DNA from: Clostridia bacterium
GTDB taxonomy: Bacteria; Bacillota; Peptococcia; DRI-13; SM3-B62
DNA: 62,169 nucleotides
Assembly: GCA_018433675.1 (NCBI GenBank)
Contig: JAHDQS010000015.1
Span: forward strand, 1 to 62,169
Direction of reading: 5' to 3'
The notes beneath the pieces are model-generated. The model made no database searches and had not been told where the DNA came from. It saw only the letters and a list, made by a program, of their open reading frames with translations. A program made the position numbers and the translations under genes. Positions 18,325 to 57,482 of the stretch are shown in pieces (position 1 is the first letter of the stretch; the number at the start of each line of letters is the position of its first letter).

Positions 18325-18440
18325 CAATCATATAAGTATAAAAAAATGCGTGAAAATAAATGATTGAAGAAATACCGGCAATATATTAGAATGTCATATA
18401 GGATAGTAAAGGAAGTTATTATCAATACAATTGAATAGCG

Positions 18441-18622
18441 GACTTACAGGTGCTCTTATTGTACGCTTATTAATGAGAGAATAGGGAAACCGGTTAAAAT
18501 CCGGTACGGACCCACCACTGTAAGCGGTGACGAATCTTCGGTTGAAAAGCCACTGTGCGTCAGCATGGGAAGGCAGAAGAGGAGGATGAACTGCGAGTCA
18601 GGAGACCTGCCTGTAGGATAAA
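18441..18622 (+). promoter_or_regulatory. Cobalamin (AdoCbl) riboswitch
   Basis: A class-I cobalamin riboswitch. It contains the ACAGGTGC 5-prime part, the core AATAGGGAAACCGG..AAAATCCGGTACGGACCC, the CCACTGTAAGCGG helix, AAAGCCACTG, GGGAAGGC and the B12-box ending GCGAGTCAGGAGACCTGCCT. It should shut off the long cobalamin operon downstream when adenosylcobalamin is plentiful. The stretch between rodA and here (18325-18440) shows nothing beyond a weak CAATCAT/ATGATTG inverted repeat. Confidence 0.95.
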
Positions 18623-18666
18623 GTGCATCGTGGGGGAGCGGAAGGCACGGGATTCTTTCAGATGGG

Positions 18667-43162: not shown

Positions 43163-43221
43163 TGAATATTCCAGTGCGTAAGAGCCACCTGTCCGATATA
43201 GAGTGAGCCACAAATCCGGAT
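43163..43221 (-). repeat. Right arm of the 59-bp perfect inverted repeat (IS21-type end)
   Basis: Exact reverse complement of 41661-41719, carrying two of the GTGGCTC repeats on the minus strand. The outer end merges with a group II intron domain V at CCGGAT. The arms enclose 1.44 kb with the palindrome and one lipoprotein gene, and no transposase. Confidence 0.75.
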
Positions 43222-43286
43222 GAAGGGAGACTTTCAAGTCCGGTTCTGTGAGAAGCTAAGGGTGAGATTCCCTTGGCTTACTCGAC
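43216..43286 (+). ncRNA. 3-prime scar of a group II intron (domain V-VI remnant)
   Basis: CCGGATGAAGGGAGACTTTC..AAGTCCGGTTCTGTGAG has the hairpin and tetraloop-like form of domain V. It is followed by AAGCTAAGGG..TTCCCTTGGCTT, a domain VI-like hairpin, and an end at CTCGAC. The 5-prime strand of domain V (GAGC) is replaced by the IS21-type end, and no intron-encoded protein or 5-prime GTGYG end is in the window. It cannot splice. Confidence 0.6.
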
Positions 43287-43613: not shown

Positions 43614-44195
43614 TGCCAACCTATTTTCACTTTTGGGACAAGTTCATAGATCAACTTGTGGAAAACAACATCATAAAAAAAGAAGACAAAGAACTTTTAT
43701 TCCTATGGCTTACATCAAGGTTCAATTATTATTGCTAATGTAGTTACTACATTGATAATTGGCTTTATCTTTGGAATGGTTTGGCAAAGTATTGTTCTTA
43801 TGGCAACATATCTTCCCTTGCGTTCATATGCAGGAGGGTATCATGCCAAAACTCAGGTCCAATGTTATGTGTCCTCCGTAGTGCTTACCTCAAGCATTCT
43901 TCTGGCAATAAAATTTATCCCGTGGACAAATTTTATTTGTTTGGGTGTTGCGATTTTTACGGGTGTTATAATATTTGTTTTTGCACCTATGGAGGATCAT
44001 AATAAACCTTTAGATCAGAGAGAAATAGTAGTATACAGAAGATGGACAAGAATTATTGTTACAGGAGAATTATTTGTAATGCTATTGATGATAGAATTAG
44101 GGCTAAATCAAATTATACACTGCATGTCAGTATCCCTTTTAGCCATGTCCGGCATGCTTTTGATAGGTAAAGCTAAGCAATTGCATGATGGCTAG
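43613..44195 (+). pseudogene. agrB: AgrB-like peptide-processing protease, frameshifted
   Basis: The gene starts at ATG 43613 (MPTYFHFWDKFIDQLVENN..) and would encode about 193 residues. One extra T in the TTTT run at 43695-43698 shifts the frame at KEDKEL: removing it restores YSYGLHQGSIIIANVVTTLIIGF and joins the rest. The downstream part keeps the catalytic His and Cys in YAGGYHAKTQVQC and several membrane helices. As written, the first product stops after about 40 residues. It may be a real inactivation, a slippage site, or a sequence error in a homopolymer. Confidence 0.8.
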
Positions 44196-44279: not shown

Positions 44280-44304
44280 CAAAAATACTATTTAAATATT
44301 CAAA

Positions 44305-44388
44305 AGCTAGGGGCAAACTCGGTGAAAACCAGGGACGCAAAGCCACAGGGACTAAGGCTTTTAACGGCGCTATGACAGCCTGATCATA
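44305..44388 (+). promoter_or_regulatory. Cyclic di-GMP-I (GEMM) riboswitch without a downstream gene
   Basis: GGGGCAAACTCGGTGAAAACC is followed by the conserved GGGACGCAAAGCCACAGGG, CTAAGG and GCTATGACAGCCTGA, the two stems and core of a GEMM-I aptamer. The 3-prime P1 strand pairs only loosely, so it may be decayed. On the plus strand the next 780 bases hold no gene; the Nudix gene is on the other strand. Confidence 0.8.
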
Positions 44389-44408
44389 GACGACGCTTGC
44401 GATTTCAA

Positions 44409-45409: not shown

Positions 45410-45438
45410 TTGACAACATGACCCAACACCACTATACT
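45410..45438 (+). promoter_or_regulatory. Promoter of the Leu T-box leader
   Basis: TTGACA (45410-45415), 17-base spacer, TATACT (45433-45438): close to consensus. Transcription should start near 45445. Confidence 0.75.
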
Positions 45439-45444
45439 GTTAAC

Positions 45445-45756
45445 AATAATATTTTTTAGTAGCTTAATAAGTGGATAATAAATATAGTGGTGATGATGGG
45501 AAATGCTTATACCGAAGTGTTACAGAGAGCCGGGGCAGGTGGAAGCCGGCACACAAGATTAAGTGTACTCGTCCCGGAGCTGTTCATCCGAACTTGCTGG
45601 AGCATAAGTAGGATGGACCGGTGGTAGCCGTTAATATACTGAATGAAGGTGATTCTCAAGGCTTTTGGCCTGATGAGGATAATCTGGGTGGTACCGCGAG
45701 ATTCCTCTCGTCCCTGACAAAGAAGAAGTTTGTCTGGGACGAGAGGATTTTTTATA
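45445..45756 (+). promoter_or_regulatory. T-box leader, probably leucine-specific
   Basis: T-box sequence TGGGTGGTACCGCG at 45685-45698. The terminator pairs CCTCTCGTCCC..GACAAA with TTTGTC..GGGACGAGAGG and ends in six T. The stem III and GCCGTTA linker lie near 45620-45635, and an AGAGAG bulge with AGGTGGAA distal loop marks stem I. A CTC at 45568-45570 fits a Leu specifier, as is usual for ilv-leu operons; this call is by eye. The next plus-strand gene, ilvD, begins 700 bases later, with an antisense gene in between. Confidence 0.88.
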
Positions 45757-45792
45757 CTATCGGAAGACCTTGTTTTCTTTATATCCAGGTGG

Positions 45793-46077
45793 TTAGTTGC
45801 TTAGGGAGTTAACTACAAAGCCTTTTCCAAACAAGGAATTGCGGTAATCAACTTCTATGCTCTTGAGACCTTTGGCTAATTTCTTGTCGATGAGAACGTT
45901 TATGTTTTTGACCTGATACTCATTGTCATTATCGGTTTTTTGCTCATCCAGAGCAAAGCCCAAGCGGGGACCGCCTCAGCCGTGACCTTTGAAGGTAATA
46001 CGAGCGTAGTTAGAAGGTGTTTCGCCGATTTGTTCGAGAATTTTATTCGAGGCCTTTTGTGATATGGTGATTTCCAT
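45793..46077 (-). CDS. HesB/IscA-like protein with in-frame UGA, probable selenoprotein
   Basis: Read through one TGA this is a 94-residue HesB-like protein. It opens MEITISQKASNKILEQIGE..NYARITFKGHG, then U34, GGPRLGFALDEQ, and continues through VDYRNSLFGKGFVV to TAA (45795-45793). In the family the UGA position is a Cys of the (C/U)GGP motif that binds metal or Fe-S, and HesB-like selenoproteins are a known group. A perfect 7-bp hairpin follows the UGA (see SECIS entry). ATG 46077 has AAGGA about 10 bases upstream. The gene lies antisense between the Leu T-box and ilvD. selA, selB, selC and selD are not in the window, so decoding is inferred. Confidence 0.8.
45939..45957 (-). promoter_or_regulatory. 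Bacterial SECIS-like hairpin
   Basis: On the mRNA, UUUGCUC-UGGAU-GAGCAAA forms a perfect 7-bp stem with a 5-base loop that has G at the second position. The loop begins 25 bases after the UGA (45978-45976). Bacterial SECIS elements usually have a G in the first two loop bases and a UGA-to-loop distance of about 16-37 bases, so this fits. Confidence 0.7.
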
Positions 46078-46196
46078 ATAGCTTTCATCCTTTCTTGTTG
46101 TTTGAACATATTGTAGCATACTACTAAGAAATAAGGAATTAAGTGTCTGCTTTATAAAAAGTACATGCATACAGTGTGCAAATTGCGAAAATGTTA

Positions 46197-46226
46197 TTGA
46201 CAGTTATCCTAACAGCGGAGTATCAT
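46197..46226 (+). promoter_or_regulatory. Promoter upstream of ilvD
   Basis: TTGACA (46197-46202), 18-base spacer, TATCAT (46221-46226). It is divergent from hesB and would give a 5-prime leader of about 220 bases on ilvD. Confidence 0.6.
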
Positions 46227-46345
46227 GGTACTTAAATACCTGATATATAATAAGCGGTACATTTTAAAACTGTTATACAAAGCAAACCGAATTAGCAGCA
46301 AGGGAAATTCATCAGATTAGGCAATTTAAACAACAATAGACGGCA

Positions 46346-46388
46346 CGAGCGGTATGTTCCGGAAAGTTGAACCTGCGCTCGGTTTTTA
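46346..46388 (+). terminator. Terminator-like attenuator in the ilvD leader
   Basis: CGAGCG (46346-46351) and GTTC (46356-46359) pair with GAAC (46369-46372) and CGCTCG (46376-46381), followed by GTTTTTAT. It stands 65 bases before ilvD, so transcription from the proximal promoter may be attenuated. I do not recognise the sensing element; no leader peptide with Leu/Ile/Val runs was found in 46233-46345. Confidence 0.6.
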
Positions 46389-46453
46389 TATAAGTGTATT
46401 TCCGAAACTGCCGTGTCAAATAACAGGTATATAAAAAAATGGAGGTAGGAGTT

Positions 46454-48118
46454 ATGAGGAGTGACACTATTAAAAAGGGTGTTACCAAGGCGCCCCATCG
46501 GTCGTTATTAAAAGCCCTTGGAATAACTGAAGCGGAGATGAAGCGTCCTTTTATTGGGGTAGTTAACCCCTATAACGACATTGTGCCCGGACACATTCAT
46601 CTTAAGGAAATAACCGAGTCCGTAAAGGCAGGGGTTCGTTATGGGGGAGGAGTTCCCTTTGAATTCCCTGTTATTGCGGTGTGTGACGGGATTGCGATGA
46701 ATCATGTGGGAATGAAATATTCCCTGGCCAGTCGTGAGTTAATTGCTGATTCTATTGAAGTGATGGTAAGAGCACACTCCTTCGATGCCCTGGTATTCGT
46801 CACTAATTGCGATAAAATAATTCCGGGAATGTTGATGGCGGCTGCCAGATTGAATCTGCCCAGTATTTTTGTCAGTGGTGGTCCCATGCAAGCTGGGAAG
46901 GTTAACGGGGAGAGAATAGCGTTAAGTGATATGTTTGAGGCGGTAGGGAAGCATAGCAACGGGAAGATGTCCGACCGGGAAATCTGGGAAATGGAAGAGA
47001 ATGCTTGTCCGGGATGCGGTTCATGCTCGGGGATGTACACCGCCAATTCGATGAATTGTCTTACCGAAGCATTAGGAATGGGACTTCCCGGTAACGGTAC
47101 GATCTTGGCAGTGACTGCGGCGCGGCGCCGTCTGGCTAAGGATGCCGGGGAGAGGATTATGGAACTTCTGGCGAAAGACTTGAAACCGAGTGATATTATG
47201 ACGAAAAAAGCATTTGAAAATGCGCTGAAAACAGATATGGCACTTGGGTGTTCTACTAATACCGTTTTGCATTTAACGGCAATCGCTCACGAAGCCGGTG
47301 TTAACCTCGATATAGATATGATTGACAAGATAAGCCGTAATACGCCGCAGCTTTGCAAACTCAGTCCTGCCGGTAATTCCTTTATTGAAGACCTGGATGA
47401 GGTCGGCGGAATTATGACGGTTATGAAGGAGCTTGATAAGGCGGGCTTAATTGATAAGGATGTTAATTGCGTAGGAGCTGATAGTCTCAAGGAGCTTTTG
47501 GACAAGGCGAAGAACACTAAGGGAGAAATCGTACGTACTTTAGAGACCGCTTACCGTAAAGATGGCGGTATTGCAGTTTTGAAAGGTAACTTGGCAGAAG
47601 AGGGTGCTGTTGTCAAGCAAGGTGCCGTTGCTGAAGGGATGATGGTGCACAAAGGGCCTGCTCGTGTGTATGATAGCGAGGAAGAAGTATCAGAGGCCAT
47701 TCTGGCAGGTGAGGTTAAAGCTGGAGATGTACTGGTTATCCGTTACGAAGGGCCGAAAGGAGGCCCCGGAATGCGTGAAATGCTCACCCCGACCTCGATC
47801 CTGGCAGGAATGGGATTGGATTCAAGTGTAGCATTAATTACTGACGGGAGATTTTCCGGAGCTACCAGAGGCGCGTCCATTGGACACGTGTCACCCGAAG
47901 CTGCAGCAGGGGGGGTGATAGCCCTAATTAGAGAGGGCGATATGATTAGTATAGATATACCTAACCGGCGACTCGAATTACTAGTGGAAGAAGAAGAGCT
48001 TAAACGGCGCAAGAAGGAATGGACGGGGCCACCGGACAGAGGTTTGGGAGGTTATATTGCCCGCTATGCGGGGATGGTTAGTTCAGCCAATAAAGGAGCT
48101 GTTTACTCTTCGGAATAA
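46454..48118 (+). CDS. ilvD: Dihydroxy-acid dehydratase
   Basis: A 554-residue Fe-S enzyme that dehydrates 2,3-dihydroxy-isovalerate and -methylvalerate to the 2-oxo acids. The cluster cysteines are in [12 protein letters not shown] and [22 protein letters not shown], and [12 protein letters not shown] and [21 protein letters not shown] are signatures. ATG 46454 has GGAGGTAGGAG immediately before it. It is the first gene of the branched-chain operon, whose genes are separated by at most 66 bases. Confidence 0.96.
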
Positions 48119-48139: not shown

Positions 48140-49843
48140 ATGAATGGTGCAGAATACCTAGTAAGTTTCCTTGAAAAAAAAGGTGTTGAGTATATTTTTG
48201 GTTATCCAGGTGGATCGGTTATCTTTCTTTATGACGTTTTAGGACGTTCTGGTCTTAAGCACATCCTAACCCGTCATGAGCAAGGGGCGGTTCATGCGGC
48301 AGACGGATACGCACGAGTGACCGGTAAGCCGGGTGTGTGCTTTGCCACATCCGGGCCCGGGGCTACTAATTTAGTTACGGGCATTGCTAATGCGTATCTT
48401 GATTCTGTTCCAATTATTGCCGTGACGGGACAGGTTAGTCTCGATTGTATAGGAAGAGATGCTTTTCAGGAAGCGGATATTATTGGGATAACGATGCCGA
48501 TCACTAAGCACAGTTATATGGTAAAAAAAATGGATGAATTACCGTCAGTTTTGGAAGAAGCCTGGAATGTGGCTACAACAGGACGTCCGGGTCCGGTACT
48601 GATCGATATGCCCAAGGATATCTTTACCGGAATAGTTGATTCACAGGCGGTGCTAAAGAAAAAATGCACCCGCAAGGTTTCTTTGAAAAATGGTTTATCA
48701 GAGCAGCTTGATAAGGTTATTGATGCTTTGTGTAAAGCAAAAAGGCCACTGGTCATGGTAGGCGGAGGGGTGATATCCGGGCAGGCTAGTGAAATCATCC
48801 GGGAATTTATCGACTACACAAAGATTCCTGTAGTGACCACACTAATGGGTAAGGGGGCTTTCCCCGATAAAGACGAAAACTGTTTAGGAATGGTGGGAAT
48901 GCACGGTATGCCGGCCGCTAATCTTGCTCTAGACTCTTCTGATGTACTTATCACACTGGGGGCAAGGTTTAGTGACAGGATTACCGGAAAGCCGGAGAAC
49001 TTCCTGCCGGAGACCAAGATCATTCATGTGGATATTGATCCGGCGGAATTGTCGAAGAATATAGTTACTGACATACCGGTTGTTTGCGATGTTGCCAAAT
49101 TTCTAACTGAGATGTTAAGTCGGTTAAAAAGGAAAGGCATAGAACTTGCTACAAAGAAGTGGCTGCAGGAAGTAACGATCTTCAGGGAAGAGTATCCTCT
49201 CCTTTACGAAAAAGAGGGTGGTCTAAAACCACAAACCGTCATTGAAGAGGTTGCGAGGCAGGTCGGCGATAAAGTCGTGGTTGTAACTGATGTAGGTCAG
49301 CATCAAATGTTTGTTGCTCAGTTTTATCCGATAGAAAAAACGCGAAACTTTGTAACTTCCGGAGGTCTGGGGACAATGGGTTTTGGCCTCCCTGCCGCGA
49401 TAGGAGCAGCATTTGGCAAAACAAATGAAGCTGTGGCTCTATTTACCGGAGACGGAAGTATCCAAATGAACATTCAAGAGTTAGCGACTATCGCTAACCA
49501 TCAACTTCCGCTCAAGGTGTTCATTTTGAATAATTCTTGTTTGGGAATGGTTCGGCAGTGGCAGGAACTCTTTTATAAAGGGCATTACTCTTCGACAATA
49601 TTTGACAGTAATCCTGACTTTGTGAAACTTGCAAATGCCTATGGCATCAAAGCATTGCGGGCGGGGGAGAAAGACGATATAAGCGAGATTGTCGCCGAAG
49701 CCTTTAGGTTGCCCGGACCTGTCATTGTTGATTGTGCGGTCTGCCAGGGAGAAAATGTGCTACCGATTATCCCTCCGGGAGGAAAGCTCAATGAGATGTT
49801 GGGGAGGTGGAAAGGTGAAGCACACATTAGCCGTATTAGTTGA
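48140..49843 (+). CDS. ilvB: Acetolactate synthase large subunit (first)
   Basis: A 567-residue ThDP/FAD enzyme. The catalytic Glu is in LTRHEQGAVHAADGYAR (about residue 48), and the ThDP motif is GDGSIQMNIQELATIANHQLPLKVFILNNSCLGMV. The specificity Trp of the family is present at residue 474 (VRQWQELFYKG). It condenses two pyruvates, or pyruvate with 2-oxobutanoate. The 3-prime end overlaps ilvN by 29 bases. Confidence 0.95.
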   Translation: MNGAEYLVSFLEKKGVEYIFGYPGGSVIFLYDVLGRSGLKHILTRHEQGAVHAADGYARVTGKPGVCFATSGPGATNLVTGIANAYLDSVPIIAVTGQVSLDCIGRDAFQEADIIGITMPITKHSYMVKKMDELPSVLEEAWNVATTGRPGPVLIDMPKDIFTGIVDSQAVLKKKCTRKVSLKNGLSEQLDKVIDALCKAKRPLVMVGGGVISGQASEIIREFIDYTKIPVVTTLMGKGAFPDKDENCLGMVGMHGMPAANLALDSSDVLITLGARFSDRITGKPENFLPETKIIHVDIDPAELSKNIVTDIPVVCDVAKFLTEMLSRLKRKGIELATKKWLQEVTIFREEYPLLYEKEGGLKPQTVIEEVARQVGDKVVVVTDVGQHQMFVAQFYPIEKTRNFVTSGGLGTMGFGLPAAIGAAFGKTNEAVALFTGDGSIQMNIQELATIANHQLPLKVFILNNSCLGMVRQWQELFYKGHYSSTIFDSNPDFVKLANAYGIKALRAGEKDDISEIVAEAFRLPGPVIVDCAVCQGENVLPIIPPGGKLNEMLGRWKGEAHISRIS

Positions 49844-50294
49844 AAACAGACCCGGTGTCCTATCACATGTGGCGGGACTTTTTTCCCGCCGCGGTTATAA
49901 TATTGAAAGCCTGGCGGTCGGTGAAACGGATGATCCTTCCGTCTCACGTATAACCCTTGTTGTTGAGGGCGATGCCAAGATTATCGAGCAAGTCAGCAAG
50001 CAGTTGAATAAACAGGTTGAGGTAATAAAGGTCAATGATATTACAGAAGAAGAAACGGTTGACAGGCAGCTGCTCTTGCTGAAGGTAAATGCGGATATTG
50101 CGGTTCGTCAGGAAATAATGCAGATTGTGGAGATTTTTCGGTGTCGTATTGTAGACATTGGACGACGTTCGCTAATTGTCGAGGCAACAGGTGATGATGC
50201 GAAAATACAGGCTATCATCAAATCCTTACAGTCCTTCGGTATTATGGAGCTAGTCAGAACAGGAAGGGTGTCGATAGTTAGGGGACAAAAGTAA
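49815..50294 (+). CDS. ilvN: Acetolactate synthase small (regulatory) subunit
   Basis: A 159-residue protein with an N-terminal ACT domain (KHTLAVLVENRPGVLSHVAGLFSRRGYNIESLAVG), the valine-binding feedback site, and the C-terminal ALS_ss_C domain. GTG 49815 is chosen because GGGGAGGTGG precedes it and the family begins there; it overlaps the end of ilvB, so it is coupled to it. It may serve both large subunits of the operon. Confidence 0.94.
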   Translation: MKHTLAVLVENRPGVLSHVAGLFSRRGYNIESLAVGETDDPSVSRITLVVEGDAKIIEQVSKQLNKQVEVIKVNDITEEETVDRQLLLLKVNADIAVRQEIMQIVEIFRCRIVDIGRRSLIVEATGDDAKIQAIIKSLQSFGIMELVRTGRVSIVRGQK

Positions 50295-50360
50295 AATGTC
50301 GTATTAAAAAAAATATCGTAGTTAAGCAGGATAATAATTTATTAAAGGGAGGAATATACT

Positions 50361-51359
50361 GTGGCAAAAATGTTTTATGATCAGGATGCGAATTTAAGTT
50401 ATCTGGAGGGCAAGAAGGTAGCAGTTATCGGTTATGGGAGTCAAGGGCATTCCCAAGCACAAAACCTGAAGGACAGTGGAGTCGATGTTGTTATCGGTCT
50501 GCGCAGGGGCGGCTCGTCCTGGGCGAAGGCGGAGCAAAACGGCTTTAAGGTGTATACGGTAGCAGAAGCCGCCGAAATGGCCGATGTTGTGCAGATTTTG
50601 CTGCCTGATGAAAATCATGCGGATGTGTATTATGGCGAGATACTACCGGGACTTAAGCCGGGTAATGCAATTGCATTCTCGCATGGTTTCAATATTCATT
50701 TCGGCAGGATTAAACCCAGGGAAGACATAGATGTATTCATGGTTGCTCCGAAAGGGCCGGGACACCTTGTCAGAAGGCTTTACTTGGAAGGAACGGGGAT
50801 CCCGGGATTAGTTGCGGTTTATCAGGATGCCACCGGCAAGGCAATGGACACTGCTCTGGCTTATGCCAAGGGTATTGGCTGCACCCGGGCGGGAACGCTG
50901 ATGACTACTTTTAAGGAAGAAACCGAAACCGATCTTTTCGGAGAACAGTGCGTACTATGCGGCGGTTTGACAGAACTGATCAGGGCAGGCTTTGATACCT
51001 TGATTGAAGCCGGATATCAGCCGGAATCAGCCTACTTTGAATGTTGTCATGAGTTGAAACTTATCATCGATCTGATTTATGAACACGGGATTGCCGGGAT
51101 GCGGTATTCAATCAGTGATACGGCAGAGTATGGTGACATGGTCAGCGGCAGACGCTTGATTACGGAAGAAACCAGAAAAGAAATGAAGCAAATCCTGAAG
51201 GAGATACAAGATGGTACTTTTGCTAAGGATTGGATTTCGGAGAACCAAACAGGAAGACCGCGTTTTAACGCCATTAAGAGGCTCGATGAACAGCACCAGG
51301 TAGAGGTAGTAGGAAAAGAACTGAGAAATAAGATGCCGTGGTTAAAGAAAGAGATGTAG
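50361..51359 (+). CDS. ilvC: Ketol-acid reductoisomerase
   Basis: A 332-residue class I enzyme. The Rossmann motif [17 protein letters not shown] starts near residue 25; GLRRGGSSW is the phosphate-binding loop, of the NADPH-type (R-x-x-S). The Mg2+ and catalytic residues are in [16 protein letters not shown] and [19 protein letters not shown] 50361 follows AGGGAGG. Confidence 0.96.
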
Positions 51360-51380
51360 ATTAATTTGGAGGTGTTACTT

Positions 51381-53054
51381 ATGCAACTGGGGGCGGAGAT
51401 ACTAATTGAAAGCTTAAGAAAAGAAAACGTCAGGGTTATCTTCGGTTACCCAGGGGGTGCGGCCCTGAAAATATTTGACGCCTTAAAGGATGCGGCCGAT
51501 ATAAGAACAATACTGGTTAGACACGAGCAGGGAGCGGCCCACGCGGCAAACGGTTATGCCAGGGCCAGTGGCAAGGTAGGTGTTTGTATGGCCACTTCGG
51601 GGCCGGGGGCCACTAACCTTGTCACAGGCATCGCTACTGCATATATGGATTCGATTCCGATTGTTGCTATAACAGGGCAGGTGGCGACTTCCATGGTTGG
51701 AACAGATGCCTTCCAGGAGGTCGACATCACCGGGATAACGGATCCGATTGTTAAGCATAACTACCTTGTACAGGAGGCGGGGGATATTCTGCGTATCATT
51801 AAGGAAGCCTTTTATATCGCACAAAGTGGGCGGCCCGGGCCAGTATTGATCGATATACCTCAAGATGTCACCGCAGCCATGGCTGAGAACATTGACTGCA
51901 AGAAGGTTGACCTGAGGGGCTATAAACCGAATATTACCGGACATATCAGACAAATCAAGCAAGTGATCGAGTTGATAGAGAAGGCGGAAAGGCCTTTGAT
52001 TTGTGCCGGTGGCGGCATGAATTCCGCCAGGGCTACGGAAGAATTATTATATATGGCTGAAAATGCCGGGATACCCGTTACGACTACTATGATGGGAAGA
52101 GGCAGTATCTCTCAGGATCATCCGCTGGCGCTGGGAATGTTGGGAACATACGGTCTGGCAGCTGCAAATATGGCCGTACAGGCTTGTGATCTCTTTATTG
52201 CTTTGGGGATGAGGTTTGGTGATAGGGTTACGGGTGCTACTGCCAAATTCGCTCCTCATGCTAAGATTGTTCACATAGATATTGATGCCGCTGAGATAGG
52301 CAAGAATATGCGTGTCGATGTCCCGTTGGTGGGAGACCTCAAAGTGGTTTTAGGGCAGTTGAATAAAAGACTGCAGTCTAAAGAAAACCTGTCATGGAGG
52401 ACAGAAATTGCTGAAATCAAGGCAAAATATAGAGCAAAAAAGATGGAAGCCGAAGCTGAGGAAGAAATTTCGGTAGCAGACGTAATAGAAAACCTAAATA
52501 AAGGGTTAACTAATGATTGTATAGTGACAACCGATGTCGGCCAACACCAGATTTGGGCAGCACAAAAAATAAAGACCAACCTGCCGGGGAAATTCATATC
52601 GTCAGGTGGATTGGGAACCATGGGGTATGGCATACCCGCAGCGGTTGGCGCACAAGTAGCTTGTCCTGACTGTAACGTTTATGTCATAACAGGGGATGGA
52701 AGCTTTCAAATGGGGATGCCCGAGTTGGGGACCGCATTAGAGCAGGGTTTGCCCCTCAAAATCGTTCTCATTAACAATCAAACCCTGGGAATGGTAAAAC
52801 AATTGCAAGACCATTATTGTCAAGGCAGGTACTCGTCTACGGAATTTTCAAAAAGCCCTGATTTTCATCATTTGGCCTTGGCTTTTGGGGCGCTGAGTCT
52901 CAGGGTGGCAAAGAGGCAAGAGCTTGCTGCAAAGATGGAAGAGTTTGTTCAGCATCGAGGAATGGCTATTATGGAAGTTGTTGTTCCTGCAAGAGAAAAC
53001 GTTTATCCTATAGTTCTCGCCGGCTCCGGCTTGGATGAGATGGTAGGAACGTGA
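51381..53054 (+). CDS. ilvB: Acetolactate synthase large subunit (second, Trp-to-Leu variant)
   Basis: A 557-residue paralogue of the upstream ilvB. The catalytic Glu (RHEQGAAHAANGYARASG) and ThDP motif (GDGSFQMGMPELGTALEQGLPLKIVLINN) are intact. The family Trp that favours 2-oxobutanoate and forms the herbicide site is Leu475 here (MVKQLQDHYCQGRYSST). It could thus be biased to acetolactate. It has no small subunit gene of its own. ATG 51381 follows TGGAGGTG. A catabolic AlsS is unlikely given the operon. Confidence 0.92.
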   Translation: MQLGAEILIESLRKENVRVIFGYPGGAALKIFDALKDAADIRTILVRHEQGAAHAANGYARASGKVGVCMATSGPGATNLVTGIATAYMDSIPIVAITGQVATSMVGTDAFQEVDITGITDPIVKHNYLVQEAGDILRIIKEAFYIAQSGRPGPVLIDIPQDVTAAMAENIDCKKVDLRGYKPNITGHIRQIKQVIELIEKAERPLICAGGGMNSARATEELLYMAENAGIPVTTTMMGRGSISQDHPLALGMLGTYGLAAANMAVQACDLFIALGMRFGDRVTGATAKFAPHAKIVHIDIDAAEIGKNMRVDVPLVGDLKVVLGQLNKRLQSKENLSWRTEIAEIKAKYRAKKMEAEAEEEISVADVIENLNKGLTNDCIVTTDVGQHQIWAAQKIKTNLPGKFISSGGLGTMGYGIPAAVGAQVACPDCNVYVITGDGSFQMGMPELGTALEQGLPLKIVLINNQTLGMVKQLQDHYCQGRYSSTEFSKSPDFHHLALAFGALSLRVAKRQELAAKMEEFVQHRGMAIMEVVVPARENVYPIVLAGSGLDEMVGT

Positions 53055-53073
53055 CGAGGGAAGGGAGAGAAAA

Positions 53074-54618
53074 ATGGTTCAAAAGGGAAAGAGAATATAT
53101 ATTTTTGACACAACTCTGCGCGATGGAGAGCAGTCACCGGGAGTTAGCCTGAATAATGACGAAAAGCTGGCGATTGCTCAACAGTTGGCACGTTTGGGTG
53201 TTGACGTGATTGAAGCAGGCTTTCCCATTGCCTCGCCGGGAGATTTCTCCTCGGTAAGCCGAATCGCCAAAGAGGTCAAAGGACCTATTATTGCTGGATT
53301 AGCACGGACCGGGGAGGCTGATATCAAAAGCGCCTATGAGGCCGTCAAGCATGCTGAAAGACCCAGGATACACACATTTGTGGCCACTTCGAAAATACAC
53401 ATGACCAAGAAACTGTGCAAGACAGAAGAAGAAGTGAAAGAAATGGCCGCCAAGTATGTTAAAATGGCAAAAAGCCTGGTTGACGATGTGGAATTCTCGG
53501 CAGAAGACGCTTTCAGAAGTGAAATCCCGTTTTTATGTGAAGTATTCACCCTCGCCATTGATGCCGGTGCCAACGTGATAAATATTCCCGACACTGTGGG
53601 CTATGCAACTCCCTGGGAGTTTGGTGAGTTTGTCAAGGCAATCAGGGAGGGAGTTCCGAATATTGATAAAGCTGTGATAAGCGTTCATTGTCATAACGAT
53701 TTAGGCTTGGCGGTAGCAAATTCCTTGGCGGCTGTGCGCAATGGAGCTCAGCAGGTTGAGGTGGCTGTCAACGGGATTGGCGAAAGGGCCGGGAACGCTT
53801 CACTGGAAGAAGTTGTTATGGCGCTGTACACCAGAAGGAATTATCTTGGTTTTTCGACAAGTATCAATACCCGTGAACTTTACCGGACAAGTACCATGGT
53901 CAGCAGATTGACCGGGATGCGTGTCCAACATAATAAGGCTATCGTTGGCAAAAACGCCTTTGCTCACGAAGCCGGGATCCATCAGGATGGGGTTATTAAA
54001 GAAAGAACGACTTATGAGATAATGAATCCGGAAATGGTTGGGATAGGCAGCAATAAGCTTGTACTGGGCAAACACTCAGGACGCCATGCCTTTAAACTGC
54101 AATTAGAGAAACTTGGATTCAATTTAAATAATGAAATTCTGGAAAAGGTTTTCAAGGAATTCAAGGCACTTGCCGATAGGAAAAGCGAAATACTGGATGA
54201 GGATTTAATTACCCTTGTTGATAATGAGATGTTTGCTGATAGTGAACAGGTTTACGAGTTGAATCATATGCGTGTTACCCTGGGGACGAATATTTCTGCA
54301 ACTTCAACTATCGGAATGCTTGTGCAAGGTAAGCCCGTTGAGGAAGCAGCTTGTGCTGATGGTCCGATCGAGGCCTCCTATGCTGCAATCAATAAAATCG
54401 TTAAGCTGCCAGCCAGACTGGAATCATACAATATTAATGCAGTAACCCATGGGAAAGATGCACAGGGTGAAGTAGTGGTAAGGGTGGCCATCGACGGCAA
54501 GACATTTATGGGCCGCGGCTTGAGCGTAGATATTATTGAATCTAGTGTAAGAGCCTATATCAATGCCTTGAACAAAATAGTCAGAGCCCAACCTGAATTG
54601 CTGCAAGAAAAGCAATAA
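53074..54618 (+). CDS. leuA: 2-isopropylmalate synthase
   Basis: A 514-residue enzyme condensing acetyl-CoA with 2-oxoisovalerate. The TIM barrel has FDTTLRDGEQSPG (about residues 11-23), HCHNDLGLAVANSLAA and GIGERAGNASLEEVVMAL. The C-terminal leucine-binding regulatory domain follows from about residue 390. The related citramalate synthase is less likely from the length and the leuCDB context. Confidence 0.95.
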   Translation: MVQKGKRIYIFDTTLRDGEQSPGVSLNNDEKLAIAQQLARLGVDVIEAGFPIASPGDFSSVSRIAKEVKGPIIAGLARTGEADIKSAYEAVKHAERPRIHTFVATSKIHMTKKLCKTEEEVKEMAAKYVKMAKSLVDDVEFSAEDAFRSEIPFLCEVFTLAIDAGANVINIPDTVGYATPWEFGEFVKAIREGVPNIDKAVISVHCHNDLGLAVANSLAAVRNGAQQVEVAVNGIGERAGNASLEEVVMALYTRRNYLGFSTSINTRELYRTSTMVSRLTGMRVQHNKAIVGKNAFAHEAGIHQDGVIKERTTYEIMNPEMVGIGSNKLVLGKHSGRHAFKLQLEKLGFNLNNEILEKVFKEFKALADRKSEILDEDLITLVDNEMFADSEQVYELNHMRVTLGTNISATSTIGMLVQGKPVEEAACADGPIEASYAAINKIVKLPARLESYNINAVTHGKDAQGEVVVRVAIDGKTFMGRGLSVDIIESSVRAYINALNKIVRAQPELLQEKQ

Positions 54619-54650
54619 AACGGTCTGAGAAATAGGGGGAATTGTTAAGT

Positions 54651-55928
54651 ATGGGTATGACAATAACCGAAAAAATACTGGCGGAACATGCGGGTTTAAA
54701 AGAGGTAGTGGCAGGACAGTTGATCAATGCAAGGCTTGATTTGGTTTTTGCTAATGACATTACAGGGCCGCTGGCAATAAAGGAATTTAAGAAAATCGGA
54801 GTTACAAGTGTTTTCGATCAAAGCAAAGTGCTGATGATTCCCGACCATTTTGCCCCTGCCAAAGATATACCTTCTGCCCAACAGTGTTTGGAAATTAAGA
54901 GGTTTGCCGCAGAGCAAGAGTTGGTTCACTATTACGAAGTTGGCCGCTGCGGCATTGAACACTGTTTCATACCGGAACAGGGTCTGGTTGTTCCGGGGGA
55001 TGTGGTGATTGGAGCAGATTCGCATACCTGCACTTACGGAGCTTTAGGAGCTTTTTCGACAGGTGTAGGCAGTACCGATTTGGCTGTGGGAATGGCCAGA
55101 GGCGAGATTTGGTTCAGGGTGCCGGAGAGCATCAAAATCATACTGCACGGCAAACCGAAAAATCGTTGGGTCAGCGGAAAAGACTATATACTTGCCATAA
55201 TCGGCAAGATAGGAGTTGACGGAGCCCAGTACAAGACGATGGAGTTTGCCGGAGAGGCCATTGACGATTTGTCTGTTGCTGCTCGCCTGACCATGACTAA
55301 TATGGCTATAGAAGCCGGTGCGAAAAACGGTATCATTGCTCCGGATGAAAAGACTATCAGTTATGTAAAGGAGCGGGCCCAAAAAGCGTGGCGGATATAT
55401 CAAAGCGATGATGATGCCGTTTATGAAAGAATCGTCGAAATAGACGTGACCGACTTGCAACCCCAGGTGGCTTTTCCCCACTTGCCTTCCAATACAAAGC
55501 CTGTCTCGGAAGCAACCGATGTTAAAATAGACCAGGCAGTGATAGGTTCATGTACAAACGGACGGTGGGAAGACCTGCTGGAGGCGGCAGAGATCATGAA
55601 AGGCCATAAGGTCCATCCGGAGGTCAGAGCTATTGTGATTCCCGGGACACAGGATATCTATTTGCGTGCCGTGAAAGAAGGTCTGATGGAGACTTTTATT
55701 GAGGCCGGCGCAGTTGTGAGTACGCCGACCTGCGGACCTTGCCTGGGAGGATATATGGGAATATTAGCTAAGGGTGAGAGAGCCGTTTCAACTACTAACA
55801 GGAATTTTGTGGGACGTATGGGTCATCCGCAAAGCGAAGTTTACCTTTCCGGCCCTGCTGTGGCGGCAGCCTCGGCAATCTTGGGTCGTATTGGGACACC
55901 CGAGGAGGTGGCACAATGCAAGTACTAA
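54651..55928 (+). CDS. leuC: 3-isopropylmalate dehydratase large subunit
   Basis: A 425-residue aconitase-family protein of the short LeuC type. The Fe-S cysteines are in [13 protein letters not shown] and [37 protein letters not shown] is typical. ATG 54651 is 11 bases after GGGGGA; TTG 54642 and ATG 54657 are alternatives. Its end overlaps leuD by 13 bases. Confidence 0.94.
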
Positions 55929-56419
55929 AGGGTCATGTGTGGAAAGTGGGACAAGATGTTGATACGGATTTGATTATCGCAGCCAGATACCTGAACCAGT
56001 CGGATCCTACTTATCTAGCGAAGCATTGTCTGGAAGACATATTTCCAAAGCTGAACGAGAAAATCAAAAAGGGTGATATTCTGGTAGCAGGGAAAAATTT
56101 CGGGTGCGGAAGTTCCAGAGAACATGCTCCGCTGGCTATTAAGCATGCCGGGTTTAGCTGCGTGGTAGCCGAAAATTATGCGCGGATATTCTATAGAAAC
56201 GCCATTAATATAGGGTTGCCGGTAATCGTTTCACCGGAAACCGTAAAAATGACCGCAGCAGGAGATCGGTTGGAGGTAGATCTCATCAAAGGGATCATCA
56301 GGAATATTACCACGGAGCAAACCTACCAAAGCGAAACATTACCGCCGTTTATGATGGAAATATTGGAAAAGGGCGGCTTGATTCCTTATGTTAGTGAGAA
56401 GGTGAAAGCTGATGTTTAA
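55916..56419 (+). CDS. leuD: 3-isopropylmalate dehydratase small subunit
   Basis: A 167-residue swivel subunit with [16 protein letters not shown] near the start and the [15 protein letters not shown] signature. GAGGAGGTGG precedes the ATG inside leuC. It overlaps leuB by 8 bases. Confidence 0.95.
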
Positions 56420-57482
56420 GGTTACTCTGCTTCCAGGTGACGGTATCGGTCCTGAGGTGATGGATCAGGCCAGAAAGGTATTACGGGAGGCAGCTCACAG
56501 ATGCGGTTTAGAGTATACGCTGCAAGAAGGCCTGATTGGCGGTGTAGCTGTTGAGGCAACCGGCGAACCCTTGCCTGCAGAAACAGGCCAGTTGGTTCTG
56601 CAAAGTGATGCTGTTCTGCTGGGGGCGATAGGCGGGCCGAAATGGGATGGTTTGCCGGTGGAAAAGAGGCCTGAAAAAGGCTTGCTGGATATTCGCAAAA
56701 AATTGGGTTTGTATGCAAACCTGCGCCCGGTTAAATGTTGGCCTCAGCTTATAGATCAGTCGCCATTCAAAAGGGAGATAGTCGACGGTGTAGATCTGTT
56801 GGTTGTGCGTGAATTGATAGGCGGAGCATATTTTGGCGCGCGGGGAACGCAAGACTGCGGAAATGAAATAAAGGCTTATGATACCATTGAGTATTCAAGC
56901 ACTGAGATCAGGCGTATTTTACAAGTGGCTATTGACATGGCCCGACAACGCGGCGGTAAACTGACTCTTGTTGATAAGGCCAATGTTCTTGACACTTCAC
57001 GTCTCTGGCGCAGAATAACAGGGGAAATGCTTTCCGAGTGTCCCGATATCCAGGCAGAGTACATGTATGTTGACAACTGTGCTATGCAATTGTGTCGGCA
57101 ACCGGGGCAATTTGATGTGATTGTCACGGAAAACATGTTTGGTGATATTTTATCGGACCAAGCCAGTGTGTTGGGAGCGTCTTTAGGCATGTTGCCGTCG
57201 GCAAGCACAGGGGAAGGCCCTGCACTTTTTGAACCCGCTCACGGTTCGGCACCTGACATTGCGGGGGAAGACAAGGCTAATCCGTTAGCGGCCATTCTTT
57301 CGGTGGCGATGATGTTGAGGATTGTTTGTCATGAAAAAAAGGCGGCGAATGAGATTGAACATGCCGTGAACAATGTGTTGGATAAAGGGCTAAGGACCGA
57401 CGATATCATGTCCGAAGGAAAAGAAAGGGTCGGTACCCAGGCAATGGGGGAAGCGATAGTTGAAGAGTTAATAAGCATGTAA
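56412..57482 (+). CDS. leuB: 3-isopropylmalate dehydrogenase
   Basis: A 356-residue NAD-dependent beta-decarboxylating dehydrogenase. LLPGDGIGPEVMDQA, GAIGGPKWDGLP, the RELIGGAYFGARG loop and ENMFGDILSDQASVLGASLGMLPSA, with FEPAHGSAPDIAG, are present. It gives 2-oxoisocaproate, the leucine precursor. It is the last gene of the operon; 57483-57627 shows no clear terminator. Confidence 0.96.
   Translation: MFKVTLLPGDGIGPEVMDQARKVLREAAHRCGLEYTLQEGLIGGVAVEATGEPLPAETGQLVLQSDAVLLGAIGGPKWDGLPVEKRPEKGLLDIRKKLGLYANLRPVKCWPQLIDQSPFKREIVDGVDLLVVRELIGGAYFGARGTQDCGNEIKAYDTIEYSSTEIRRILQVAIDMARQRGGKLTLVDKANVLDTSRLWRRITGEMLSECPDIQAEYMYVDNCAMQLCRQPGQFDVIVTENMFGDILSDQASVLGASLGMLPSASTGEGPALFEPAHGSAPDIAGEDKANPLAAILSVAMMLRIVCHEKKAANEIEHAVNNVLDKGLRTDDIMSEGKERVGTQAMGEAIVEELISM

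Follow-up and report, generated by a model that had tools for sequence, protein, structure and literature searches.

A short HesB-like reading frame in a Clostridia bacterium (contig JAHDQS010000015.1, all 62,169 nt of which are called the window here) is crossed by a UGA codon. This raises the question of whether the codon ends the protein or is read as selenocysteine (Sec), and of what a selenoprotein would do where this gene lies, antisense between a leucine T-box and an ilv-leu operon.

The hesB gene has an in-frame UGA at the first conserved cysteine of its family

An earlier note, made from the sequence alone, had placed a HesB-like selenoprotein gene at 45793-46077. The coordinates proved right, and the gene lies on the minus strand, which the note had left unstated (Table 1). 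We found, as it had claimed, one TGA at the family Cys of the (C/U)GGP motif with HesB sequence on both sides: the product is MEITISQKASNKILEQIGETPSNYARITFKGHG-U-GGPRLGFALDEQKTDNDNEYQVKNINVLIDKKLAKGLKSIEVDYRNSLFGKGFVVNSLSN, where U is codon 34, the motif around UGA-34 is GHG-U-GGP, and in an alignment with E. coli IscA the UGA stands opposite Cys35, the first of the conserved cysteines. With the Sec replaced by Cys, the product matches Pfam family Fe-S_biosyn (PF01521) at 30.3 bits over residues 1-89, across the UGA, which places it in the family at the gathering cut-off of 26.3 bits; in a whole-genome search reading through the stop, hesB scored 23.8 bits, under that cut-off. The solved A-type structures 2apn, 1nwb and 1s98 also match HesB, with the Sec opposite the Cys of 'GCSG'. 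The note's expectation that ordinary gene callers would truncate the gene was borne out by the mechanical ORF list, which stops at the UGA (64-aa ORF, 46170-45976). In the whole-genome search, hesB was the sole PF01521 or NF038090 match, and no other A-type carrier was detected.

Table 1. Features of the hesB locus in the window
Feature	Position	Strand	Basis
T-box transcript promoter, TTGACA-17-TATACT	45410..45438	+	conserved in 8/8 genomes
T-box leader, specifier CUC (Leu)	45484..45718	+	RF00230, 114.5 bits
T-box terminator hairpin and T run	45702..45757	+	direct reading
hesB-like selenoprotein gene, 94 codons + TAA (ATG at 46077, TAA at 45795-45793)	45793..46077	-	translation, PF01521 match, homologue
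Bacterial SECIS hairpin, UUUGCUC / loop UGGAU / GAGCAAA	45939..45957	-	folding, covariation, register comparison
In-frame UGA, codon 34	45976..45978	-	translation, alignment to E. coli IscA
Likely ribosome-binding site of hesB, AAAGGATG region	46085..46093	-	direct reading, inference
Possible second ilvD promoter, TTGACA-18-TATCAT	46197..46226	+	consensus match only
ilvD, dihydroxy-acid dehydratase (Fe-S enzyme)	46454..48118	+	PF00920, PF24877
Rest of operon: ilvB1, ilvN, ilvC, ilvB2, leuA, leuC, leuD, leuB (names presumed, by sequence recognition)	48140..57482	+	ORFs

HesB-like selenoproteins are already known, as the note had said: the family (TIGR01911 HesB_rel_seleno; NF038090 IscA_HesB_Se) is described in PMC1794560, where 11 were counted in 2006, and its motif UxGP is listed in PMC13188914. 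For the HesB-like protein of Methanococcus maripaludis, 75Se labelling has been noted, with its function unclear (PMC11097638). The window protein shares with this family the small HesB domain, the Sec at the first conserved Cys in U-x-G-P, the lack of an internal C-terminal CxC pair and a SECIS element directly after the UGA. Unlike the family, it falls under the cut-offs of both models (TIGR01911, 47.5 against 66.35; NF038090, 64.9 against 85), and its gene has a constant position in an ilv-leu leader. Three further Sec homologues also fall under both cut-offs; hence, the two models are narrow. Since HesB-like selenoproteins are already known and the protein scores below these NCBIfam cut-offs, hesB here is a further, divergent member of the known family.

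Selenocysteine machinery is present and the UGA is conserved

The source genome (2.997 Mb, 99.94% complete) has selA (495 bits), selB (389 bits), tRNA-Sec (71.6 bits, some 55 nt beyond selB) and selD (414 bits), the four genes that the earlier note had proposed to look for. The selD gene itself has an in-frame UGA (motif TKAAG-U-AAK). A second match above the tRNA-Sec gathering score (G000:C7:138960-139045, 50.5 bits) may be an ordinary long-arm tRNA.

In our survey of the order, hesB was found in 8 of 25 genomes, and all eight genes have exactly one TGA with the sequence after it intact. Hence, neither of the two grounds on which the note would have given up a selenoprotein, missing Sec machinery and relatives decayed after the UGA, was found. 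SelA is present in 7 of these 8 genomes. The other (G010) has a UGA-bearing hesB and selB with no detectable selA in an assembly that is 94% complete; because it has SelB, the lack of SelA is probably a gap in the assembly.

The homologue in a second species of the genus, from a separate assembly, is 96% identical and has the same UGA. The two genes differ at eight sense codons, of which five changes are synonymous and the others are V/I, K/R and V/I. This pattern resembles that of a protein still under selection downstream of the UGA rather than that of a decaying one.

A single TGA in a small gene might also be a genuine stop, with the gene decaying into a pseudogene, or a miscalled TGC or TGT. 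Only the general prior speaks for this, and it is extremely improbable given the recurrence of this UGA in a second species, assembled separately, and in six more genomes of the order, the synonymous or conservative nature of the few differences after the UGA, the covariation of the RNA hairpin described below, and the Sec machinery in the genome. We consider it very probable that hesB is a functional HesB-like (IscA/A-type) gene in which UGA-34 is read as Sec at the family's first conserved Cys. In the proposed mechanism, SelB and Sec-tRNA would read this codon as selenocysteine, with the hairpin that begins 18 nt downstream as the signal.

A covarying SECIS hairpin follows the UGA

The 7-bp perfect stem with a UGGAU loop 25 nt from the UGA reads in the sequence as had been claimed (in DNA, TTTGCTC, loop TGGAT and GAGCAAA, with 7 perfect pairs). 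Published bSECIS criteria are a loop of 3-9 nt, a stem of 4-16 bp, a G in the first two loop positions, a spacing of 16-37 nt and an MFE at or under -7.5 kcal/mol (PMC13188914); the window hairpin falls within all of them, with a 5-nt loop, 7 bp, 25 nt and -9.4 kcal/mol (30-nt hairpin region). Among 20,000 synonymous recodings of the 15 residues, 0.9% had a stem of at least 7 pairs with the required loop and spacing. Hence, the hairpin is only moderately significant from one sequence, since that share of recodings does equally well.

The question of the predicted SECIS element is settled by comparative evidence. We compared 32 Sec forms (30 from other genera and 2 from the window's genus) and 22 Cys forms, which have Cys at the position of the UGA. 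At the register of the window hairpin, an unbroken run of at least 5 pairs, counted from the loop, is formed in 30 of the 32 Sec homologues versus none of the 22 Cys homologues. Compensatory changes were found at 4 of the 7 stem pairs among the 28 distinct Sec sequences; 90.8% of the cells are paired versus 83.7% in shuffles, and the covariation score is 0.315 versus 0.186, with 0 of 500 shuffles as high in either measure. When the register was slid, 20-45% of the cells in the same 28 sequences were paired.

The protein motif LDE overlies the SECIS loop, and selection on the protein could by itself account for the loop sequence. LDE does not explain why the flanks pair or why the codons are fixed in the Sec forms. 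Residues flanking LDE tend to track the RNA: A-LDE-P occurs with GGCUC/GAGCC, T-LDE-S with GACUC/GAGUC and A-LDE-Q with UUGCUC/GAGCAA. Hence, these residues tend to change together, which preserves the pairing of the SECIS stem, and the HesB-like Sec family is a clear case of an RNA element dictating amino acids.

In one genome (G048), the HesB-like protein occurs twice, once with Cys and once with Sec (L042 and L086). The Cys gene retains CTCTGGATGA, whereas little is left of the 3' half of its stem, and this gene resembles a recent Sec-to-Cys change or a duplicate. Scanning both strands of the window for a UGA with a stem and long open frames gave no second selenoprotein; UGA-34 is the only UGA there that combines a long open frame to either side with a SECIS-like stem of at least 6 pairs.

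The window HesB has no cysteine

Two properties go beyond the earlier note: the absence of Cys and the antisense place of the gene, which across the order keeps a Leu T-box on one side and the ilv-leu operon on the other. The window protein has zero Cys over its whole length, and neither of the two Sec proteins of the window's genus has any, whereas all 30 Sec proteins from other genera have 1 to 4 Cys each, in every case with Cys in the C-terminal tail.

A classical A-type carrier has three conserved Cys, one in the CGGP/CSG region and two in the C-terminal CxC; here the first is Sec and the other two are absent. The protein is like IscA, SufA and ErpA in sequence family (PF01521 and the three structures above) and in having its Sec opposite Cys35, and unlike them in lacking both C-terminal CxC cysteines while the remaining Cys is Sec. 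Hence, Sec is the sole thiol- or selenol-type group of HesB, and a cluster or redox pair could arise only between subunits or together with a partner.

hesB lies antisense between a leucine T-box and the ilv-leu operon

In the window, a promoter, a Leu(CUC) T-box and its terminator are followed by antisense hesB and then by the ilv-leu operon, whose first gene, ilvD, reads away from hesB. About 40 nt separate the end of the terminator from the hesB stop codon. This layout is common to all 8 genomes of the order with hesB (5 families, 6 genera): promoter, CUC specifier and terminator are conserved in every one, each T-box has CTC at the specifier position, and it lies on the strand opposite to hesB and ends 75-233 nt past the gene. 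The gene adjoins ilvD in six genomes and ilvB in the other two (G009 and G010), which have ilvD elsewhere. Operon gene order is the same in G001, G003, G009, G010 and G013, as far as the loci reach. A promoter-like site lies between hesB and ilvD in 5 of the 8 genomes (consensus match only).

In G011, a genome of the same order without hesB, the T-box stands directly before ilvD; hence, the T-box is the ilv-leu leader, and hesB lies inside the leader region. The HesB proteins of the order form one clade (support 99/91). Outside the order, no ilv neighbours of Sec-hesB were seen in the readable loci.

Further elements were seen around these genes. In L091 and L092, hesB and ilvD are separated by a 103-aa ORF that resembles a membrane protein and lies on the ilvD strand; it is found in genus g2 only (G002/G003). 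In the window, a terminator-like hairpin (GAGCGG...CGCTCGGTTTTTAT, within 46310-46400) between the putative second promoter and ilvD resembles the tail of a ykkC-like element at the same place in G002, G003, G011 and G013; the rest of that element is unrecognisable in the window, where a search up to E = 1 gave no ykkC/Guanidine-I-like element. In G011 and G013, such an element ahead of ilvD scores 40.9 and 39.7 bits (cut-off 63). The sub-threshold Guanidine-I/ykkC matches directly before ilvD in L100 (1272-1407) and L101 (3307-3411) could, by their position, form tandems with the Leu T-box as ppGpp-type ykkC riboswitches. Elsewhere, the window has a group II intron fragment (43211-43286), an AgrB-like protein (43752-44195), a c-di-GMP-I riboswitch (44302-44390) and a cobalamin riboswitch (18431-18628).

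A viral or mobile origin of hesB was considered and rejected, with no relative in viral contigs. Five weak matches to phage records (26-35% identity) were found, four of them labelled Staphylococcus, Salmonella or Escherichia; these four were taken as ordinary A-type genes of the host.

Candidate functions and proposed regulation of HesB

LeuCD is an Fe-S-dependent enzyme. IlvD requires a [4Fe-4S] cluster (PMC6495748). Given this dependence, the Fe-S family to which HesB belongs, its fixed neighbourhood beside ilvD or ilvB and its standing as the sole A-type protein detected, HesB may bind iron or an Fe-S cluster and would then deliver or repair clusters for the Fe-S dehydratases IlvD and LeuCD of the adjoining operon, a role that we find quite possible and place somewhat below an even chance. 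Because HesB has no Cys of its own, the iron or cluster would be held by the Sec of two or more subunits. Counterpoints are that the classical three-Cys cluster site is absent from the predicted protein, that ilvD lies apart from hesB in G009 and G010, and that the readable loci outside the order showed no ilv linkage. In addition, 17 of the 25 genomes of the order have ilvD without a HesB protein, so HesB is unnecessary for IlvD in general. In Methanococcus maripaludis, disruption of a hesB-like gene left nitrogen fixation unimpaired (PMC11097638).

With the classical cluster site removed by the lack of any Cys, HesB might instead be a Sec protein with a redox or detoxification task (e.g. peroxide, metals, metalloids) that is unrelated to the ilv-leu enzymes and owes its position to descent only. 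We take this as a serious contender that does not quite reach even chances. A redox role is assumed for most uncharacterised selenoproteins (PMC13188914), linkage to ilv genes was not seen in the readable loci outside the order, and the single clade formed by the genes of the order could reflect one event kept by inertia. However, the layout persists over 5 families and 6 genera despite altered spacing and intervening sequence, including the 103-aa ORF in G002/G003 and the operon without ilvD in G009/G010, and a member of an Fe-S family sits beside an operon that encodes Fe-S enzymes.

The place of the gene also suggests a form of control. Because hesB is antisense between the Leu T-box and ilvD, read-through would transcribe across it: leucine shortage would cause T-box read-through, yielding an antisense transcript over hesB and less hesB expression while ilv-leu is made. 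We propose this tentatively and with some doubt, and a possible second ilvD promoter would allow ilvD to be transcribed without crossing hesB. That the T-box acts on the ilv operon only, with the crossing incidental and hesB unregulated by it, has in our judgement an even chance, in keeping with the T-box directly before ilvD in G011 and with the report that small genes lying antisense next to riboswitches are in many cases misannotated or inserted by chance (PMC9943018). Here, however, the small gene is well supported and its antisense placement is kept in 8/8 genomes, and the likely separate ilvD promoter in 5/8 means that the T-box transcript would be unneeded for ilvD alone.

The proposed read-through control is like that of antisense-acting riboswitches (PMC9943018) in that a regulatory leader reads toward and through an opposite-strand gene; it differs in that the leader also serves a normal downstream operon, ilv-leu, and in that the crossed gene encodes a selenoprotein. 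HesB is not mentioned in the main text of PMC9943018, and our literature search, with most subscription journals outside its coverage, found no paper in which HesB is tied to a T-box or to ilv genes. Nor did the literature searched describe the Cys-free form or this conserved position within the ilv-leu leader.

Taken to its furthest, this reading would have a Cys-free HesB use Sec as its only metal- or redox-active chalcogen side chain, acting as an inter-subunit Se-ligated carrier or redox centre dedicated to the ilv-leu Fe-S dehydratases and shut off by antisense Leu T-box read-through. This full combination is unlikely; if true, a selenoprotein would here be governed by an excludon under amino-acid control.

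For twenty years, HesB-like selenoproteins have been listed without a known task. The fixed ilv-leu/T-box neighbourhood, kept across families, names candidate partners (IlvD and LeuCD) and a candidate signal (uncharged Leu-tRNA). Hence, the function of HesB becomes directly testable.
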